Of a stretch of 64,000 nucleotides of DNA, positions 21,824 through 38,694 are shown in pieces. The first letter of the stretch is position 1; each line of letters begins with the position of its first letter. The notes beneath the pieces are model-generated. The model saw nothing but the letters and a program-made list of their open reading frames with translations, was not told the DNA's origin and ran no database searches. Source of the stretch: a virus; the IMG/VR virus record IMGVR_UViG_3300040944_000171, positions 1 to 64,000 of that record; one strand, written 5' to 3'. The position numbers were made by a program, and so were the translations under genes.

Positions 21824-22309
21824 TCAGGCTGTGGGTGGCTCCGGTACGGTGTCGGCGGATCCGGCGGGCGCTCCCTGGATCGCGTGGAGGTGGCGCATGC
21901 CCGTCGACACATCGCTCAGGCTCCGCTCAAGCCCGTCAAGGGCCATGGCCAGGCCGAGAGGCCAGGGATCGTGCTCCGGTTGCGCCTCCAGGTGCTGACG
22001 CAGGATTAGGGTGTCACGGCGCAGCGCCATGAGCCCATCACCGCACCCGACGCAGAGGATGCTCCCCGGCACGGGAGCGGCCCGGTCGGGAGGCTGAGGT
22101 CCCCGGATGCGGTCGCCGATGGCCTGCCCGATCTGCATGCCGGCCGCCGTCAGCGTCCCCGATAGAAGGCCCAACGCCTCGGCTCGGGTCCAATGCTGGC
22201 GCTCCGGCTCCCCCTCCTGCGGCGGTGCGCTGGCGGGCTCCTCCGGTGGCGCAACCGGCTCCTCGGGCGGGGCACCAGCTCCGTCCTGACCCTGATCTCC
22301 GATGCTCAT
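21824..22309 (-). CDS. Hypothetical Pro/Glu-rich protein
   Basis: 161 residues. Acidic Pro-rich N-terminus, then helices with CVGCGDGLMALRRD (possible metal site). GGGAGGACAGCG precedes the ATG, and the start overlaps the stop of the transposon-split gene as ATGA. Insertion of the transposon has separated it from its former upstream operon. Function unknown. Confidence 0.6.
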   Translation of the reverse strand: MSIGDQGQDGAGAPPEEPVAPPEEPASAPPQEGEPERQHWTRAEALGLLSGTLTAAGMQIGQAIGDRIRGPQPPDRAAPVPGSILCVGCGDGLMALRRDTLILRQHLEAQPEHDPWPLGLAMALDGLERSLSDVSTGMRHLHAIQGAPAGSADTVPEPPTA

Positions 22310-22365
22310 CGCTGTCCTCCCTTGCGGCGCTCGCGCGCCTCGATCCGCTGCCGGATGGTCTCGGC
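22306..22365 (-). pseudogene. 3' part of gene split by the transposon
   Basis: Encodes the last 19 residues (TIRQRIEARERRKGGQR at the end) of a small basic protein. Includes the left 8-base target duplication (22358-22365, GTCTCGGC on plus). Joined to the 26507-26628 part with one duplication removed, the frame is exact. Confidence 0.85.
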
Positions 22366-22383
22366 GGTAGTGGGTCAGTTTGA
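22366..22383 (+). repeat. Left terminal inverted repeat
   Basis: GGTAGTGGGTCAGTTTGA, identical in reverse complement to 26489-26506. Confidence 0.92.
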
Positions 22384-22431
22384 GCTGCGCCGGGGTTGAC
22401 GGCCGGGGTCCGGGTGTGCTTCCGTTCGACT

Positions 22432-22677
22432 ATGCCTGACCGCTCACGCAAGAACCGCCCCGCCGACTTGAACCGCCTCGCCGTCTCCATTGTGGACGAG
22501 GCTGTGGGCGAGGCCCCCGACCCGGACGCCGGGAAGGACCCTGCTGCCGTGTCTCTGGGGCGACGGGGCGGCCTGAAGGGCGGCAAGGCACGGGCGGCGA
22601 GGATGACCCCGGAGGAGCGGACGGCCCTGGCGCGCAAGGCGGCCGCGGTTCGCTGGCACGGCCCAGAAGGCGGGTAG
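22432..22677 (+). CDS. Small basic GGKARA-type protein (transposon cargo)
   Basis: 81 residues, ending LGRRGGLKGGKARAARMTP, then EERTALARKAAAVRW. This Gly/Lys/Ala-rich pattern is common in small bacterial proteins thought to bind nucleic acid; no function is established. Located just inside the left transposon end, on the strand opposite the methylase. Confidence 0.65.
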   Translation: MPDRSRKNRPADLNRLAVSIVDEAVGEAPDPDAGKDPAAVSLGRRGGLKGGKARAARMTPEERTALARKAAAVRWHGPEGG

Positions 22678-22723
22678 GTCCCCCGCGCGCCCAAGTTCTT
22701 CGCCCGAGCTGCGCTGGCTCTGA

Positions 22724-23656
22724 CTAACTAGCTTTTGGGGCACCCCGCAAGAATCGCGCCACCTGCGCTACCGACAGCTTGGCTGGGTCGGATACATCGG
22801 GGATCTCCAGCCCATCGGAAAAGAACACGACCTCTCGCCCCTTGTAGCGTACAGAGGCCCCGTAGGCGATGTCATAGGTGACCAGCCGCCGGCCTCGGTA
22901 AAGCGCACGGACCTCGGGTTGGTCGTCATACGAGACCATCCAAGGCATCGGCAGCTTGCGGACGAGCTTCGCAATCTTGGCGTGGTCGCGCGGCTCGTAG
23001 ACGTTCCGGTAAAGATCCTGCCCCTTGCTGTAATACGGCGGGTCGAGGTAGACGAGGGTCTTCGCTCCGACATGTGGCGCCACATCCCTTAGAAAGACGG
23101 CGCCGTCGAGATTGTACACTTCGATCCGGCTGCGCCACCGCCCAATTCGCTCAATACGACGAACGAGGTCTCGACGATTGTACCGGGCGCCCATCTTCCA
23201 TTTCCCGGTTTGTTGACGCCCACCGATAATGCCTCCCGTAAGCACCCCTGAGCGGTTGACTCTGTTCAAGTAGAGTGTCGAGAAGGCCAGTTCCAGGGGC
23301 TCGGCGTTGATTGCCACCTGGACCATCCGTTGGCGATCCCATTCCTCAACAGTGAGTGGGGCGTCGTTGACGAGGCGGCATAGCTCATCGGTGTGGTCAC
23401 GGCAGGCCATCCAGAAGGCGTATACACCGCGATCCAGATCGTTCAAGTAGATCCGTTGCGCATAGTCGCCGTACAGAAGTGCCAAGGCAACGGCACCACC
23501 GCCCGCATATACCTCCACATAGTTGCCGTCCAGCAGCCCGTTTGTGCGGAATACGAGGGTCAGGAAGTTGGCGAGTTTGCGCTTGCCACCCGGATAGCGC
23601 AATGGAGAGTAGAACGCTGCGGTGCCGACTCTATGTCGTTGTGGGGGCTGGCTCAC
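22724..23656 (-). CDS. dam: Dam-type DNA adenine methylase
   Basis: 310 residues. PLRYPGGK (18-25) and VEVYAGGG (47-54) form the SAM site; LDPPYYS (204-210) is the catalytic motif IV, the alpha-class order of D12/Dam enzymes. It methylates the N6 of adenine; the target is probably short, GATC being only one possibility. GTG start forms GTGA with the ParB-like gene's stop, so the two are translated together. Less GC-rich than surrounding viral genes. Confidence 0.92.
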   Translation of the reverse strand: MSQPPQRHRVGTAAFYSPLRYPGGKRKLANFLTLVFRTNGLLDGNYVEVYAGGGAVALALLYGDYAQRIYLNDLDRGVYAFWMACRDHTDELCRLVNDAPLTVEEWDRQRMVQVAINAEPLELAFSTLYLNRVNRSGVLTGGIIGGRQQTGKWKMGARYNRRDLVRRIERIGRWRSRIEVYNLDGAVFLRDVAPHVGAKTLVYLDPPYYSKGQDLYRNVYEPRDHAKIAKLVRKLPMPWMVSYDDQPEVRALYRGRRLVTYDIAYGASVRYKGREVVFFSDGLEIPDVSDPAKLSVAQVARFLRGAPKAS

Positions 23657-24999
23657 GCCCAGAGCGCCTCGATCAGATGGGCGAACTTGTCCCACACGGC
23701 TCTCAGGTCGTTGGCGCTCGGGGTCATGTCTGGATTATGCACGAAAGCATTGAGGTTGGTAACGAGCGTGAGCTTGTCGGGGTCGCGAAGCGCTTCCCGA
23801 ACCGGGAGCGTCTCGGCCTTGCTCATCACAGCGTTGGCTTCCAAGTCATCGAGGACGCCGTTGGCCTTCTGCTGGAGTTTCTTATCCCAGCCGGCCAGCT
23901 TAGCGAGGTGTGGGTTCCGCTTGATGTAGTCGTCGATGCTCAGCTCGATGAAGGTGCGGAACAGTACGGCTACGGCGTTAGGCGCATCGTTCAGAGTGAC
24001 CTTTCGCTTCAACTCGTGGTAGATGTCGTTGATTCTGCTGACGGCGATGGCCACCGTGAAGTCGGCTGGGATCATCCTAGTGCGCGAACTGCTATGGCGG
24101 CGGTCCTTGGACTTCGTCGTGGACCCTGTGGCTTTCTCCGGGGCCTCGTCGAGCGGTGCTGAGACGGACGTGCGCGTGGATGGATCGGGAAGGTCTGCAG
24201 TAGAGAGCTTGTTGACGTAACGTGCTCGATCCTCCTTGGACATCAGGTCGCCGACCTTCACTGCGCCTGTCCCGATGTCGTCGACGAGCTTCGTCAGGCC
24301 CTTGAGAACCTCAGTCTTTGGATAGTCCGTGACCACCTTGCCACTGACGATGTCGATCCCTAGCCGCTCGCGCACACGAGGAGTGGTCAGAGCACGAGCT
24401 AGGGTGCTCACAGGATAGTTGCCTTTCTTGTGGCGCTCAATGGTCTCGGCGCTCGGATGTCCCGCTCGGATAACGAAGTCGAGCAGTTGCATGTGGGGAG
24501 GCGTGGCGGCCTCCCGCCGGGAGCGGTGCCGCGTCTTCTGTTGGGCCGTCCACTCGACGAGACCCTCGCCGTCACCCTGCCCCCCATGGAACAGTTCCAC
24601 CCATATGTTGGCGTCGTCCCGCTTCTCGAACACGACGCACGGAACCTCGGACAGAGGGTCGTACGCGCTCGCGAGCGTCCGAAGCTGCGCCATCTGGCTG
24701 TCCGCGAGAAAGCCCTGGAGGGTTTCCGGCTGCTCCAGAGCCTTGAGCGCCACCAGACGCCGGTTCGCGTCGAGGACGATGTAGTTGTCCTCATCGGGGA
24801 TCACGATGAAGCGCTGGGCGGGACTGAGCCCGTTCTGAGCTATGTGGCGCGCGAGGGCAAGGAGCTTCCCCTTTTGTTCGGACGCAAGAGCCTCGATCGC
24901 CTCTCTCTGATTGTCGGGGTCGGTCGCAACGCGGGGGTTCTTGAGATCGAGTTTCAACTTGGACAACTCGATGTCGTCTGGATAGGGGTGGTCGGGCAT
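23653..24999 (-). CDS. ParB/Srx-domain protein with HEPN-like C-terminus
   Basis: 448 residues. LSKLKLDLKNPR (12-23) and VLDANRRLVALKAL (75-88) are the ParB/sulfiredoxin-fold signature, where the NRR loop binds nucleotide or DNA. The C-terminal 120 residues are all-helical with LNAFVHN, similar to HEPN-type domains that can be ribonucleases; the arginine of the usual R-x4-6-H motif is not clear. RBS AGGTGA before the ATG. Coupled to the adenine methylase: probable DNA-modification or defence cassette. No parA partner is present, so plasmid partition is unlikely. Confidence 0.75.
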   Translation of the reverse strand: MPDHPYPDDIELSKLKLDLKNPRVATDPDNQREAIEALASEQKGKLLALARHIAQNGLSPAQRFIVIPDEDNYIVLDANRRLVALKALEQPETLQGFLADSQMAQLRTLASAYDPLSEVPCVVFEKRDDANIWVELFHGGQGDGEGLVEWTAQQKTRHRSRREAATPPHMQLLDFVIRAGHPSAETIERHKKGNYPVSTLARALTTPRVRERLGIDIVSGKVVTDYPKTEVLKGLTKLVDDIGTGAVKVGDLMSKEDRARYVNKLSTADLPDPSTRTSVSAPLDEAPEKATGSTTKSKDRRHSSSRTRMIPADFTVAIAVSRINDIYHELKRKVTLNDAPNAVAVLFRTFIELSIDDYIKRNPHLAKLAGWDKKLQQKANGVLDDLEANAVMSKAETLPVREALRDPDKLTLVTNLNAFVHNPDMTPSANDLRAVWDKFAHLIEALWA

Positions 25000-25042
25000 A
25001 TTTCACCTACTCTGCGCTTGGTAAGGCCAGCTATCAAAGGAT

Positions 25043-25072
25043 AGTGTAACATGCCCTTTGGCATACAGCCAA
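25043..25072 (-). promoter_or_regulatory. Sigma-70-like promoter for ParB-like/Dam pair
   Basis: On the minus strand: TTGGCT (25067-25072), 18 bases, TACACT (25043-25048). The ATG at 24999 follows about 37 bases after the expected transcript start. Confidence 0.55.
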
Positions 25073-25176
25073 CCAACATGACAGAGCGGTGGTTTCAGAA
25101 GAGAGCCAGGTGTCGCCGAACCCTTCGGCCAGCGCGACGGCTGAGCCAAACTGACTGCGGACCCACTATCCCTGTA

Positions 25177-25205
25177 TTGACATTGCCAGGACGCTCAGGC
25201 ATAAT
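25177..25205 (+). promoter_or_regulatory. Sigma-70 promoter of transposase
   Basis: TTGACA (25177-25182), 17 bases, CATAAT (25200-25205). The expected start of transcription coincides with the ATG at 25213, so the mRNA may be leaderless; the in-frame ATG at 25204 lies inside the -10 box. Confidence 0.7.
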
Positions 25206-25212
25206 GGTCAGT

Positions 25213-26049
25213 ATGAACAGGCTATCCCAGGCTCAGCGGGTGGCGGTGGTCAAGGCGCTGGTGGAGGGCACCAGCATCCGGGGCACCGTCCGCCTGACCG
25301 GCGTCGCCAAGAACACGGTCACCAAGCTCCTGGTCGACCTCGGGGCTGCCTGCTCCGAGTACCAGGACCGGGTGTTCCGCGACCTTCCCTGCCGTCGCCT
25401 CCAGGCCGACGAGATCTGGAGCTTCTGCAACGCCAAGGCCAGGAACGTCCCCGAGGCTCACCGGAGGGAGTTCGGCTGGGGCGACGTCTGGACGTGGACC
25501 GCCATCGACGCGGACACCAAACTCGTCCCCTCGTGGGTGATCGGAGAGCGCACCATCGGCGACGCCATCGCCTTGATGGACGACCTCAAGGGCAGGCTGG
25601 CCAACCGGGTGCAGTTGACCACGGACGGGCACAAGGCCTACCTGGAGGCCGTCGAGGGGGCCTTCGCGTTGGACATCGACTACGCCCAACTCATCAAGCT
25701 CTACGGCAACGACCCCGAGGCCGAGAAGCGGTACAGCCCCGCCAAGTGCGTGGGCGTCGAGGTTCACCGGGTCAGCGGGAATCCTGCTCTGGCCGACGTC
25801 TCCACCAGCTACGTGGAGCGGCAGAACCTCACGATGCGGATGTCGATGCGCCGCTTCACCCGGCTCACCAACGCCTTCAGCCGGAAGGTGGAGAACCTGG
25901 CCGCGGCCGTCTCGCTCCACTTCATGTTCTACAACTTCGCCAGGCCCCACAAGACGCTGGCTAACCCGTATCCCCGGACTCCTGCGATGGCGGCCGGGGT
26001 GGCTGACCACGTTTGGAAGATCGAGGAGATCGTCGCGCTGCTCGGGTAG
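25213..26049 (+). CDS. IS1-family-like transposase
   Basis: 278 residues. N-terminal helix-turn-helix (GTSIRGTVRLTGVAKNTVTK) binds the ends. Catalytic residues are visible as QADEIWSF (first Asp), LTTDGHKAY (second Asp) and SYVERQNLTMRM (Glu), the IS1 DDE pattern, in a single frame without the programmed frameshift of classical IS1. ATG at 25213 chosen because the promoter's -10 overlaps the earlier ATG. Drives the 4.1-kb transposon. Confidence 0.9.
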   Translation: MNRLSQAQRVAVVKALVEGTSIRGTVRLTGVAKNTVTKLLVDLGAACSEYQDRVFRDLPCRRLQADEIWSFCNAKARNVPEAHRREFGWGDVWTWTAIDADTKLVPSWVIGERTIGDAIALMDDLKGRLANRVQLTTDGHKAYLEAVEGAFALDIDYAQLIKLYGNDPEAEKRYSPAKCVGVEVHRVSGNPALADVSTSYVERQNLTMRMSMRRFTRLTNAFSRKVENLAAAVSLHFMFYNFARPHKTLANPYPRTPAMAAGVADHVWKIEEIVALLG

Positions 26050-26431
26050 GCGGCTCCAAACCCTGGCTCTTCAGCACAGCGTCTGCCAGTTTGTTCACCG
26101 CTTCCGCCAGCTCTTCGGTGCGGTCACGTGTAAACGCCCGCTCGCTGGCACGGCTGCTGCGCTCGTGGGTCTCTTTCTCACGCTCAAGGAGCCTTTCCCG
26201 CTCTCGTTGCCGCTTCCTGCCGGGCAGCCACCCTCCCGTAGCCCCAGCTACGAGGCAGTAGAGCCCGAATCCGAAGGCCAGGGAGGCGATGGCTGGCTCC
26301 AAGGCAGCGAGCCACAGCGGCGCATGGATCGCGCCTGTCAAGAGGAGCGGTCCCACGGCGGCAAGAAGCGTTACTCCGGCCGTCACGAGCGCGGTCCCGA
26401 CCCCGATCCAGGCCCGCCGCCACTCAGCCAC
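25961..26431 (-). CDS. Membrane protein with coiled-coil tail (transposon cargo)
   Basis: 156 residues from GTG. Two membrane helices (ALVTAGVTLLAAVGPLLL and LEPAIASLAFGFGLYCLVAG) are followed by a long charged helix (RERERLLEREKETHE-type) and a basic tail. Its 3' end overlaps the transposase gene on the other strand by 89 bases. Lies between transposase and right end. Could be a passenger effector; function unknown. Confidence 0.5.
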   Translation of the reverse strand: MAEWRRAWIGVGTALVTAGVTLLAAVGPLLLTGAIHAPLWLAALEPAIASLAFGFGLYCLVAGATGGWLPGRKRQRERERLLEREKETHERSSRASERAFTRDRTEELAEAVNKLADAVLKSQGLEPPTRAARRSPRSSKRGQPPRPPSQESGDTG

Positions 26432-26488
26432 GAACGGATGATGCGGCGGCGCTTGCCCGTCTGGTATGTCATTTGGCGACCGCCTAGG

Positions 26489-26506
26489 TCAAACTGACCC
26501 ACTACC
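26489..26506 (-). repeat. Right terminal inverted repeat
   Basis: Reverse complement of the left end, 18 of 18 bases; directly followed by the second copy of GTCTCGGC. Confidence 0.92.
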
Positions 26507-26628
26507 GTCTCGGCCCGCTGCTTGCGGTGGCCGTCCTCGCGCCGCCGCTGGCGATCGCGCTCGCGCAGCTCGCGGTTGCTGTGCGAGGTGGGCGGGGGCA
26601 CGAAGCCCCCGCCCACAGTGCTCATCAT
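26507..26628 (-). pseudogene. 5' part of gene split by the transposon
   Basis: Encodes the first 38 residues (opening MMSTVGGGFVPPPTSHSNRE, then an Arg-rich helix) plus the start of the duplicated target. The intact gene would encode a 57-residue basic protein: this part, then AETIRQRIEARERRKGGQR. Directly downstream of the lysin gene and upstream of the 22309 gene before insertion. Confidence 0.85.
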
Positions 26629-36111: not shown

Positions 36112-38694
36112 ATGACCGCCTCGGCCACCGTCACCCGCTACACGCCGAGCAGGCCCTGCCCCATCTGCGGGGGCAACGACCGGCTCCGGCGGGGCAAGGG
36201 GGTGCGCTGCGCCGGGTACCTCACCGGTGACGGCCGGGTGGCCTTCTGCAGCCGCGAGGAGAAGGCGGGCTCGCTCCAGGTGGCGGGCGACAGTAACTGC
36301 TTCCCCCACCGCCTCGAGGGCCGCTGCGGCTGCGGGGTGAGCCACGGCGAGGCCCCGCCGCCGCCCCTGAGGAGGGCGCCGCGCGACACGAGGCCCTGGC
36401 GCCCCGTCGCCCATTACGACTACCACGACCGCGACGGCAATGTCCGCTACCAGGTGATCCGCCTGGAGCCCGATCCCAATCCCGATGGCGACAAGCGCTT
36501 CACCCAGCGCCGCCCCGACCCGCTCCATCCCGGCCGCTGGATCGAGGGGCCGGGGGCCATGGAGAGCGTCCAACTACTGCCGTACCGGCTCCCCGACCTC
36601 CTCAAGGATCCCAAGCGCCTCATCCTCATCGTGGAGGGCGAGAAGGCCGTCGACGCCCTCCGCCGGCGGGGCCTGCCCGCCACCACCTGCCCCATGGGCG
36701 CGGGCAAGTGGTGGGACGCGGGCGGCGACTGCCCCCGCACCGAGCTCACCTCCTGGATGCTCGCCGACGTGGCGGGCCGGGGCGACAACCGCCTCCCCGT
36801 CGTCATCGGTGACAACGATGACGCCGGCCGCCGGGGCGCCGAGGCCGCCTGCCGCGCCTTCGCCGCCACCGGGCTCGACCCCCAGATCCTGGAGCTGGTC
36901 GGTGTCAAGGAGCACGGCGGTGCCGACGACTGGATCGACCAGGATCCAACCCGCACCGCCCGCGACCTCATCGCCCAACTTCCCGGGCAGCGCTGGCTCG
37001 ACCTCCATCCCACCGAGGCCCAGGGGCAGGAGCCAGAGGGCGGCGGAGGGAACGGGGGAAATGGCAATGGCCATCATCCCCAGAGCGACGGCCACGGCTC
37101 AGAGCCAGGCCAGGTGCTCCCCGAGTTCAGCGACACCCGCAATGCGGAGCGCTTTGCCAGCCGCCACGGCGCGGGCGCCCGGTACGACCATACCCGGGGG
37201 CTCTGGCGCCTCTACACCGGCACCCGCTGGCGGCTGGACGGCACGGAGCAGTGCATGACCCTCGCCAAGGAGACGGTCGCCCGCCTCCCCGAGGAGATCC
37301 CCGCCTGGTGCGACGACGCTAGGGCGCGCCACCGCCTCCACCGCGAGATCCTCGCCTGCGAGTCCACCATGCGCCTGCGCGCGCTGCTCGCCAACGCGCA
37401 GTCGCGCCTCCACTCGACCCACGAGACCTGGGATCCCGACCCCTGGCTGCTCAACTGCGAGAACGGCACCGTCGATCTCCGCACCGGCCAGCTGCACCCC
37501 CACAACCCCGACCAGATGCAGTCGCGGCTCGCCCCCTACCGCTTCGACCCCGACGCCCGCTGCCCGCAGTGGGACGCCTTCCTGGAGCGGGTGCTGGGCG
37601 GCGACCACGAGCTGATCGCCTTCGTCCAGCGCGCCGTCGGTGTCTCCATCATCGGCGAGATCCTGGAGCATGTGCTCTTCGTGCTGTACGGCACCGGGGC
37701 CAACGGCAAGTCCACCTTCCTCAACGTCCTGAGCTTCCTGCTGGGCGACTACGCCCGCGCCGCCGACCCCACCCTCCTCCTCGATCTCGGTCACCCCTCA
37801 CACCCGACGAACGTCGCCGAGCTTCGCGGTGTGCGGATGACAGTGATAGCGGAGCCCGAGGGGAAGCTGAACGAGAGCCTCGTGAAGGTGCTGACGGGTG
37901 GCGACATCCGGTGGGCGCGGTTCATGTTCCGCGACGCCTTCACCTATGTGCCCTCGGACATCCCGTGGATGAGCACGAACCACAAGCCCCTCGTCACCGG
38001 CAACTCGGAGGGGATCTGGCGGCGGCTGCGCCTGATCCCGTTCACGGTGCTGATCCCGCCCGAGGAGCGCGACCCCAACCTCGCCCGCCGCCTCCTGCGC
38101 GAGGAGGCCCCGGGCATCCTGCGCTGGTGCGTCGACGGCTGCCTCGCATACCAGCGCCAGGGCCTGGGCCAGTCGCCAGCGGTGGAGCGGGCCACCCGCC
38201 AGTACCGCACCGAGATGGACTCGATGGCCGCCTTCCTGGAGCAGGAGACCATCCCATCGGCGGCCGATTCCGTCTCGGCCGCTGAGCTCTTCCACCGGTA
38301 CAAGGACTGGTGCGAGGGCTCCGGCGAGCGGCCGACCTCGCAGCGCTTCCTCGGCCTCCGGCTCAGCGAGCGTGGGCTGACCTCCTTCCGATCCGCGCAC
38401 AATGGCAACCGCACCCACTGGCGCGGCCTCCGGCTGCGGATGGTCGGCGAGCAGCTCGCCCTCGCACCCGGTGACGACTCCCTCCTCGCCGACTGCCAGG
38501 CCGTCTGCCGAGCGCTCTGGGCCGAGGGGAAGGAGGCCCGCGAACTCTGCTCGCTCATCCTCCAGACCCACGGCTGGGAGGCTGAGGGCCAGCCGTCCGA
38601 GTGGCTGGTGGCGCAGGATCGGGATGTCCTTGAGGCCATACTCCCCGAGGCGCAGACCTCGCTCGCGGAGATCCGGCAGCGGAAGGGACGGTAA
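36112..38694 (+). CDS. Primase-helicase (TOPRIM plus SF3/D5 helicase)
   Basis: 860 residues. N-terminal zinc finger (CPICGG near 16-21, further Cys to residue 46); TOPRIM primase with VEGEK (174-178) and GDNDDAG (233-239); then a D5-type linker and a superfamily-3 helicase with Walker A GTGANGKST (about 527-535), an IAEPE acidic segment and sensor STNHKP (about 622); a C-terminal D5 wing ends the protein. Lays RNA primers and unwinds DNA at the element's origin. First gene of the plus replication block, beside a DnaA box. Confidence 0.95.
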   Translation: MTASATVTRYTPSRPCPICGGNDRLRRGKGVRCAGYLTGDGRVAFCSREEKAGSLQVAGDSNCFPHRLEGRCGCGVSHGEAPPPPLRRAPRDTRPWRPVAHYDYHDRDGNVRYQVIRLEPDPNPDGDKRFTQRRPDPLHPGRWIEGPGAMESVQLLPYRLPDLLKDPKRLILIVEGEKAVDALRRRGLPATTCPMGAGKWWDAGGDCPRTELTSWMLADVAGRGDNRLPVVIGDNDDAGRRGAEAACRAFAATGLDPQILELVGVKEHGGADDWIDQDPTRTARDLIAQLPGQRWLDLHPTEAQGQEPEGGGGNGGNGNGHHPQSDGHGSEPGQVLPEFSDTRNAERFASRHGAGARYDHTRGLWRLYTGTRWRLDGTEQCMTLAKETVARLPEEIPAWCDDARARHRLHREILACESTMRLRALLANAQSRLHSTHETWDPDPWLLNCENGTVDLRTGQLHPHNPDQMQSRLAPYRFDPDARCPQWDAFLERVLGGDHELIAFVQRAVGVSIIGEILEHVLFVLYGTGANGKSTFLNVLSFLLGDYARAADPTLLLDLGHPSHPTNVAELRGVRMTVIAEPEGKLNESLVKVLTGGDIRWARFMFRDAFTYVPSDIPWMSTNHKPLVTGNSEGIWRRLRLIPFTVLIPPEERDPNLARRLLREEAPGILRWCVDGCLAYQRQGLGQSPAVERATRQYRTEMDSMAAFLEQETIPSAADSVSAAELFHRYKDWCEGSGERPTSQRFLGLRLSERGLTSFRSAHNGNRTHWRGLRLRMVGEQLALAPGDDSLLADCQAVCRALWAEGKEARELCSLILQTHGWEAEGQPSEWLVAQDRDVLEAILPEAQTSLAEIRQRKGR

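Follow-up and report, generated by a model that had tools for sequence, protein, structure and literature searches.

A PD-Lambda-5-type ParB-like/methylase gene pair on an IS1-like transposon in a phage genome, and its possible role in methylation-sensing defence

The stretch of DNA analysed here (the window) comprises positions 1 to 64,000 of the 70,626-bp IMG/VR virus record IMGVR_UViG_3300040944_000171. A first-pass annotation, made from the sequence alone, had placed it in a viral element, in agreement with the source record and with a phage primase identified at 36112-38694. Two adjacent minus-strand genes of the window, here called A and B, encode a ParB-like protein of 448 amino acids (aa) and a DNA methyltransferase of 310 aa, respectively. 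The pair is very probably a PD-Lambda-5 anti-phage module, with a complete IS1-like transposon inside the phage genome as its carrier (Table 1). PADLOC profiles match both proteins over almost their entire length: PD-Lambda-5_A aligns with A at an E value of 1.5e-123 (residues 8-447 to profile positions 5-464 of 466) and PD-Lambda-5_B with the methylase at 2.9e-110 (residues 14-293 to profile positions 3-283 of 291). The pair had been proposed as a new coupled defence or modification unit; its defence-type character is upheld by these matches and its novelty is not, as phage selection in E. coli had earlier yielded PD-Lambda-5 as an anti-phage system (Vassallo 2022, PMC9519451). The selection host lacked the mrr region (PMC9519451), which suggests that PD-Lambda-5 may actively place foreign methylation on DNA in vivo. 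The system is often prophage-borne, Actinobacteria included (PMC10482375). As in the described system (PMC9519451), the window genes are adjacent, with the methylase second, and lie in a phage genome; unlike it, the window pair has diverged in sequence, overlaps by 4 nt and has an IS1-like carrier.

The product of B is a member of the D12 class (Pfam MethyltransfD12, E value 1.8e-15, 57.8 bits with a cut-off of 22) and possesses the motifs PGGKRK, YAGGG and DPPY (LVYLDPPYYS). Its best sequence match in the PDB is 7m6b (7.6e-21), and it falls below the cut-off for the Dam subfamily TIGR00571. For A, no family was found in Pfam or NCBIfam, the PHROGs families matching it strongly are unannotated in function, and a PDB sequence search with its profile returned a de novo protein as the sole match. 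Single-protein scans for A across viral and genome contigs gave no match, while an alignment-based scan of the viral contigs did. A begins with ATG preceded by AGGTGA, and B is counted from the GTG that overlaps the TGA of A, with an alternative start possible at a GTG farther upstream (23695). This GTGA overlap, noted in the first-pass annotation, is confirmed and may couple translation of the two genes; co-transcription would likewise be expected from it. The common promoter that had also been proposed was not recovered, the promoter scan finding no sigma-70-like site on the minus strand upstream of 24999.

The transposon holding the pair (22366-26506, 4141 bp) is bounded by perfect 18-bp terminal inverted repeats, for which 0.02 chance matches are expected at three or fewer mismatches, and by an 8-bp target duplication, GTCTCGGC. 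The location within a transposon predicted for the two genes was therefore correct, and the ends and duplication make its boundaries exact. When the element and one copy of the duplication are removed in silico, an uninterrupted phage open reading frame (ORF) of 57 aa is restored, with its stop codon overlapping the ATG of the next gene at 22309. The G+C content of the transposon is 0.63 vs 0.71 for the window. Its transposase was identified with Pfam DDE_Tnp_IS1 (34.6 bits, cut-off 24.1) and NF033558 (6.6e-15, under the equivalog cut-off). A promoter for this gene consists of a -35 box TTGACA at 25177, a 17-nt spacer and a -10 box CATAAT at 25200-25205; the ATG follows 8 nt past the -10 box, and the start codon appears to be leaderless. 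Comparable spacing is seen in several sister elements. Like members of the IS1 family and the transporter insertion sequences (tIS), the element has an IS1-type transposase, inverted ends starting with GG, an 8-bp duplication and passenger genes; unlike them, it encodes a single-ORF, apparently leaderless transposase and an extra conserved small gene, is 4.1 kb long and carries defence cargo. No convincing family was found in NCBIfam or PHROGs for a further ORF of 156 aa, which is possibly additional cargo.

Table 1. Features of the transposon, its cargo and the interrupted phage gene
Feature	Position	Strand	Basis or remark
PD-Lambda-5 A	23653..24999	-	PADLOC match, AlphaFold2 model, VIA-align matches
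PD-Lambda-5 B, D12-class N6-adenine DNA methyltransferase	22724..23656	-	Pfam, PADLOC, PDB sequence match
4-nt GTGA shared by the stop codon of A and the start codon of B	23653..23656	-	Sequence
Domains of A	Residues ~6-146 (ParB/Srx fold); 152-263 (helical middle); linker; 317-448 (HEPN-fold C-terminal)		Predicted structure
Left terminal inverted repeat, GGTAGTGGGTCAGTTTGA	22366..22383	+	Sequence
Right terminal inverted repeat, matching the left one at all 18 bp	26489..26506	-	Sequence
Target-site duplication GTCTCGGC, left copy	22358..22365		Sequence
Target-site duplication GTCTCGGC, right copy	26507..26514		Sequence
IS1-like transposase, ATG at 25213	25213..26049	+	Pfam DDE_Tnp_IS1, NF033558, promoter scan
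Small accessory ORF, 81 aa, ...KDPAAVSLGRRGGLKGGKARAARMTPEERTALARKAAAVRW...	22432..22677	+	Starts ~67 nt inside left end; kept in sister transposons
156-aa ORF, membrane segments and charged helix	25961..26431	-	ORF list; overlaps 3' end of transposase gene, right side of transposon
5' part of interrupted 57-aa phage ORF	26515..26628	-	3' part continues from 22365 downwards

Protein A was modelled with AlphaFold2 on 42 sequences (mean predicted local distance difference test score, pLDDT, 90.4). Residues 6-146 superpose on the cytidine triphosphate (CTP)-binding domain of ParB (PDB accession no. 7bnr; VIA-align Z 10.4, 95 residues, root mean square deviation 2.0), and Foldseek matched the protein to 7bnk (E value 1.4e-4), so that the ParB/Srx fold read from the sequence stands. 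Alignments with KorB, Noc and pNOB8 ParB extend to residues 264-269 of A (Z 7.3-8.6), and the helical middle domain may therefore be ParB-like too. The ANRR motif occupies residues 78-81 and belongs to a box of the form [GA]-N-R-R, in which the Asn (N79) is invariant in all 42 homologues; N21, R23, G57, N79-R80-R81, P91, W150 and R202 are likewise invariant among them. Like the CTP switches ParB, KorB and Noc, A thus possesses the N-terminal fold (Z 8-10) and possibly a helical DNA-binding middle domain; unlike them, it has Asn for the GERR-type Glu, a methylase partner and, where ParB has its C-terminal dimerisation domain, a HEPN-type helical domain. A role as a ParB partition protein in chromosome partition was considered and is ruled out by the HEPN-type C-terminus, the Asn in the GERR box and the methylase partner.

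The C-terminal 137 residues of A were also folded separately (pLDDT 91). The best 20 VIA-align rows from the PDB were all of HEPN type (Z 6.4-8.8 over 101-117 residues), among them AbiA (8.8), HepT (8.6), sacsin (8.3) and HI0074 (8.0), with the first non-HEPN row at Z 5.7. This domain was weakly matched by Foldseek (best E value 0.46), and its assignment rests on the VIA-align ranking and its consistency, not on Foldseek. The helical C-terminus is accordingly of HEPN type, as the first-pass annotation had proposed, and not of a non-effector fold. The LNAFVHN motif lies around residue 421; H421 is kept in 41 of the 42 homologues, and R348 and E352 in 37. In common with the HEPN effectors HepT, AbiA (C-terminal domain) and Csm6, A has this fold and a conserved His ahead of the last helix, but it differs from them in that the Arg of the Rx4-6H motif is missing throughout the A family. 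The toxin-type HEPN motif that had been suggested is therefore not intact, since no Arg precedes the conserved His.

Conservation of the pairing was surveyed by means of the alignment-based scan of viral contigs, in which 80 loci were reduced to 58 representatives at 80% identity. Because the search pattern was built from A only, methylase neighbours were not selected for. All 55 representatives with readable flanks have a DNA methylase beside the A relative (50 adenine D12, 5 cytosine-C5), so the rare co-occurrence that would have spoken against a functional pair was not seen. Among the 58, a D12 gene lies downstream on the same strand in 41 and is convergent in nine, five have a C5-cytosine methylase, and three contigs end too soon. 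The five C5 cases are of the short Wphi gp98 type and occur with gp96 and Mth. A methylase of this class in 5/55 relatives indicates that the ParB-like module tracks methylation and not one enzyme chemistry. The chemistry changes between subclasses of A while the ParB-like module is kept, which speaks for A as a sensor of the methylation state. The Wphi/P2-type gp98-gp96-Mth locus resembles the window pair in that a DNA methylase adjoins a ParB-like N-terminal module of the GNRR type. Its A-like protein, however, is shorter (~370-400 aa), gp96 is an additional gene, and the methylase, a C5-cytosine enzyme, is encoded on the opposite strand. Each of the five short-class relatives recovered after redundancy removal shows this arrangement (L010, 96-3266; L196-L208), which is possibly a related methylation-linked defence system.

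Taken together, the locus is probably best explained as a PD-Lambda-5 module on an IS1-like transposon with methylation-sensing, HEPN-driven defence. The mechanism itself, a methylation-sensing ParB-like switch driving a HEPN-fold effector, is put forward tentatively, at somewhat less than an even chance. The D12 methylase B would mark adenines of the resident DNA. Protein A, built like a ParB clamp from a nucleotide-binding ParB/Srx domain, a helical and possibly DNA-reading domain and a HEPN-fold effector tail, would recognise DNA without the mark, for example that of a superinfecting phage. Nucleotide-dependent closure or multimerisation would then trigger the C-terminal domain, which would halt translation or replication and let the lysogen or its neighbours survive, with a presumed benefit to the carrier phage. 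In the literature found, PD-Lambda-5 is described by its anti-phage phenotype only, with no worked-out mechanism. The ParB-plus-HEPN architecture and the constant methylase neighbour, whether adenine or cytosine, make methylation sensing by A through a ParB-like switch directly testable.

Several observations weigh against this interpretation. A shares only 21-36% identity with the remaining viral members in the alignment, and, for a helical bundle, its Z-scores against HEPN domains are moderate. Across the 42 homologues no Arg is conserved at -4 to -7 from H421 (the window copy has L at -5); the Rx4-6H ribonuclease motif is thus missing from the A family, the fold being HEPN all the same. Ribonuclease activity by the usual HEPN mechanism is doubtful, judging from the family-wide lack of the catalytic Arg. 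In addition, N79 stands at what we take to be the position of the catalytic Glu of the ParB GERR box, and with this replacement a ParB-like CTPase cycle in A is not assured.

The missing HEPN Arg would also suit a different role for A, that of a DNA-cleaving restriction partner whose ParB/Srx domain nicks unmethylated phage DNA and whose HEPN-like tail serves dimerisation or DNA binding only, the pair being a compact restriction-modification system that confers direct immunity. Nuclease-active ParB/Srx proteins and ParB-HNH restriction enzymes (GmrSD/BrxU) have been described (PMC12839542, PMC10853773), and BrxU is a weak structural match to A (Z 3.8). Such a role is nevertheless unlikely, even if nuclease activity of the ParB/Srx domain is conceivable: no endonuclease family, known nuclease active site or restriction endonuclease fold was found in A with Pfam, NCBIfam and Foldseek, and a C-terminal His kept in 41/42 homologues goes beyond the need of a plain dimerisation domain.

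The carrier invites a reading as selfish maintenance, in which A would be a toxin and the methylase its antidote, post-segregational killing would stabilise the transposon or phage, and phage defence would be a side effect; HigB/HigA-, SocA/Panacea- and Rosmer-like toxin-antitoxin genes on sister transposons fit this idea, which we regard as quite improbable. Orphan methylases are common in phages, and B could instead guard the DNA of the phage itself against host restriction while A merely regulates the expression or action of the methylase. For DndB, a ParB-family protein, a role in regulating DNA modification has been suggested (PMC10853773), but the pair came by transposon and not as a phage core gene, and A bears an effector-type HEPN fold; self-protection of this kind is very improbable. 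As for the preferred methylation-sensing model, a bolder form of it can be drawn, in which A is a ParB-type nucleotide-gated clamp turned immune sensor that loads on unmarked DNA and releases a non-canonical HEPN effector, and in which the IS1-like family is a cross-phylum shuttle of small defence modules into phages; in full, it is rather unlikely.

As a kind, the PD-Lambda-5 pair is already known, and its carrier is the notable feature. An IS1-like transposon carrying PD-Lambda-5 was not seen in the 80 other viral loci, and no description of IS1-like elements carrying PD-Lambda-5 or PD-Lambda-2 was found in the open literature, of which coverage was incomplete. Transporter insertion sequences with passenger genes are an established concept (PMC7986276, PMC9330008), and defence or toxin-antitoxin cargo is documented on Tn7-like (PMC8649781) and Tn3 (PMC7157771) transposons. 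The exact 18-bp end of the window element occurs in more than 100 viral contigs and more than 100 GTDB contigs (both lower bounds), and the hosts among the listed matches belong to the Acidobacteria, Proteobacteria, Nitrospirae, Planctomycetes, Actinobacteria, Chloroflexi and Bacteroidetes. Among these matches, 36 elements combine paired ends with an exact duplication. Twenty-three of them are at least 800 bp long, with the transposase present in 18 and the conserved small gene in 21.

Many small elements bounded by these ends, in phages and many bacterial phyla, hold cargo resembling PD-lambda-2, Rosmer or toxin-antitoxin genes. PD-Lambda-2_B-like proteins gave E values of ~1e-40 to 1e-46 in the four that were scanned, and the profile built from these matches 13 of 238 loci; RmrA-like (Rosmer) genes occur at two loci and P63C at seven. 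None of these three cargo types was seen in 80 control loci. Further cargo comprises a HEC-04-like ATPase, HigB (HigB/HigA-like), SocA/Panacea and an SDH-type protease; paired ends or an exact duplication are missing at some of the cargo-bearing loci. Loci of the IS1-like family with defence or toxin-antitoxin cargo were observed in both phages and bacteria (L014, L017, L032, L042, L070, L114, L118, L239, L247 and L304). Of the sampled loci with these transposon ends, none but the window copy yielded a homologue of PD-Lambda-5 A, so repeated capture of this module by the transposon is unsupported.

The small accessory gene, for which no family was found in Pfam or NCBIfam, was traced with a profile built from 16 family copies, the window copy among them. 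It lies near 42 of the 141 transposon ends examined, mostly starting 65-90 nt inside. Its products are ~75-120 aa long with a KGGKARA...ARW motif, and it is present also in elements without a transposase. At three loci (L066, L302 and L313) a motif like that of the small gene is fused to a P63C-type protein. Most elements below 800 bp lack both the transposase and the small gene and have the look of miniature inverted-repeat transposable elements (MITEs). MITE-like elements of 119-334 bp that share these ends and are flanked by exact 8-bp duplications were seen in viral and bacterial contigs (L012, L026, L064, L111, L127, L275, L278 and L279).
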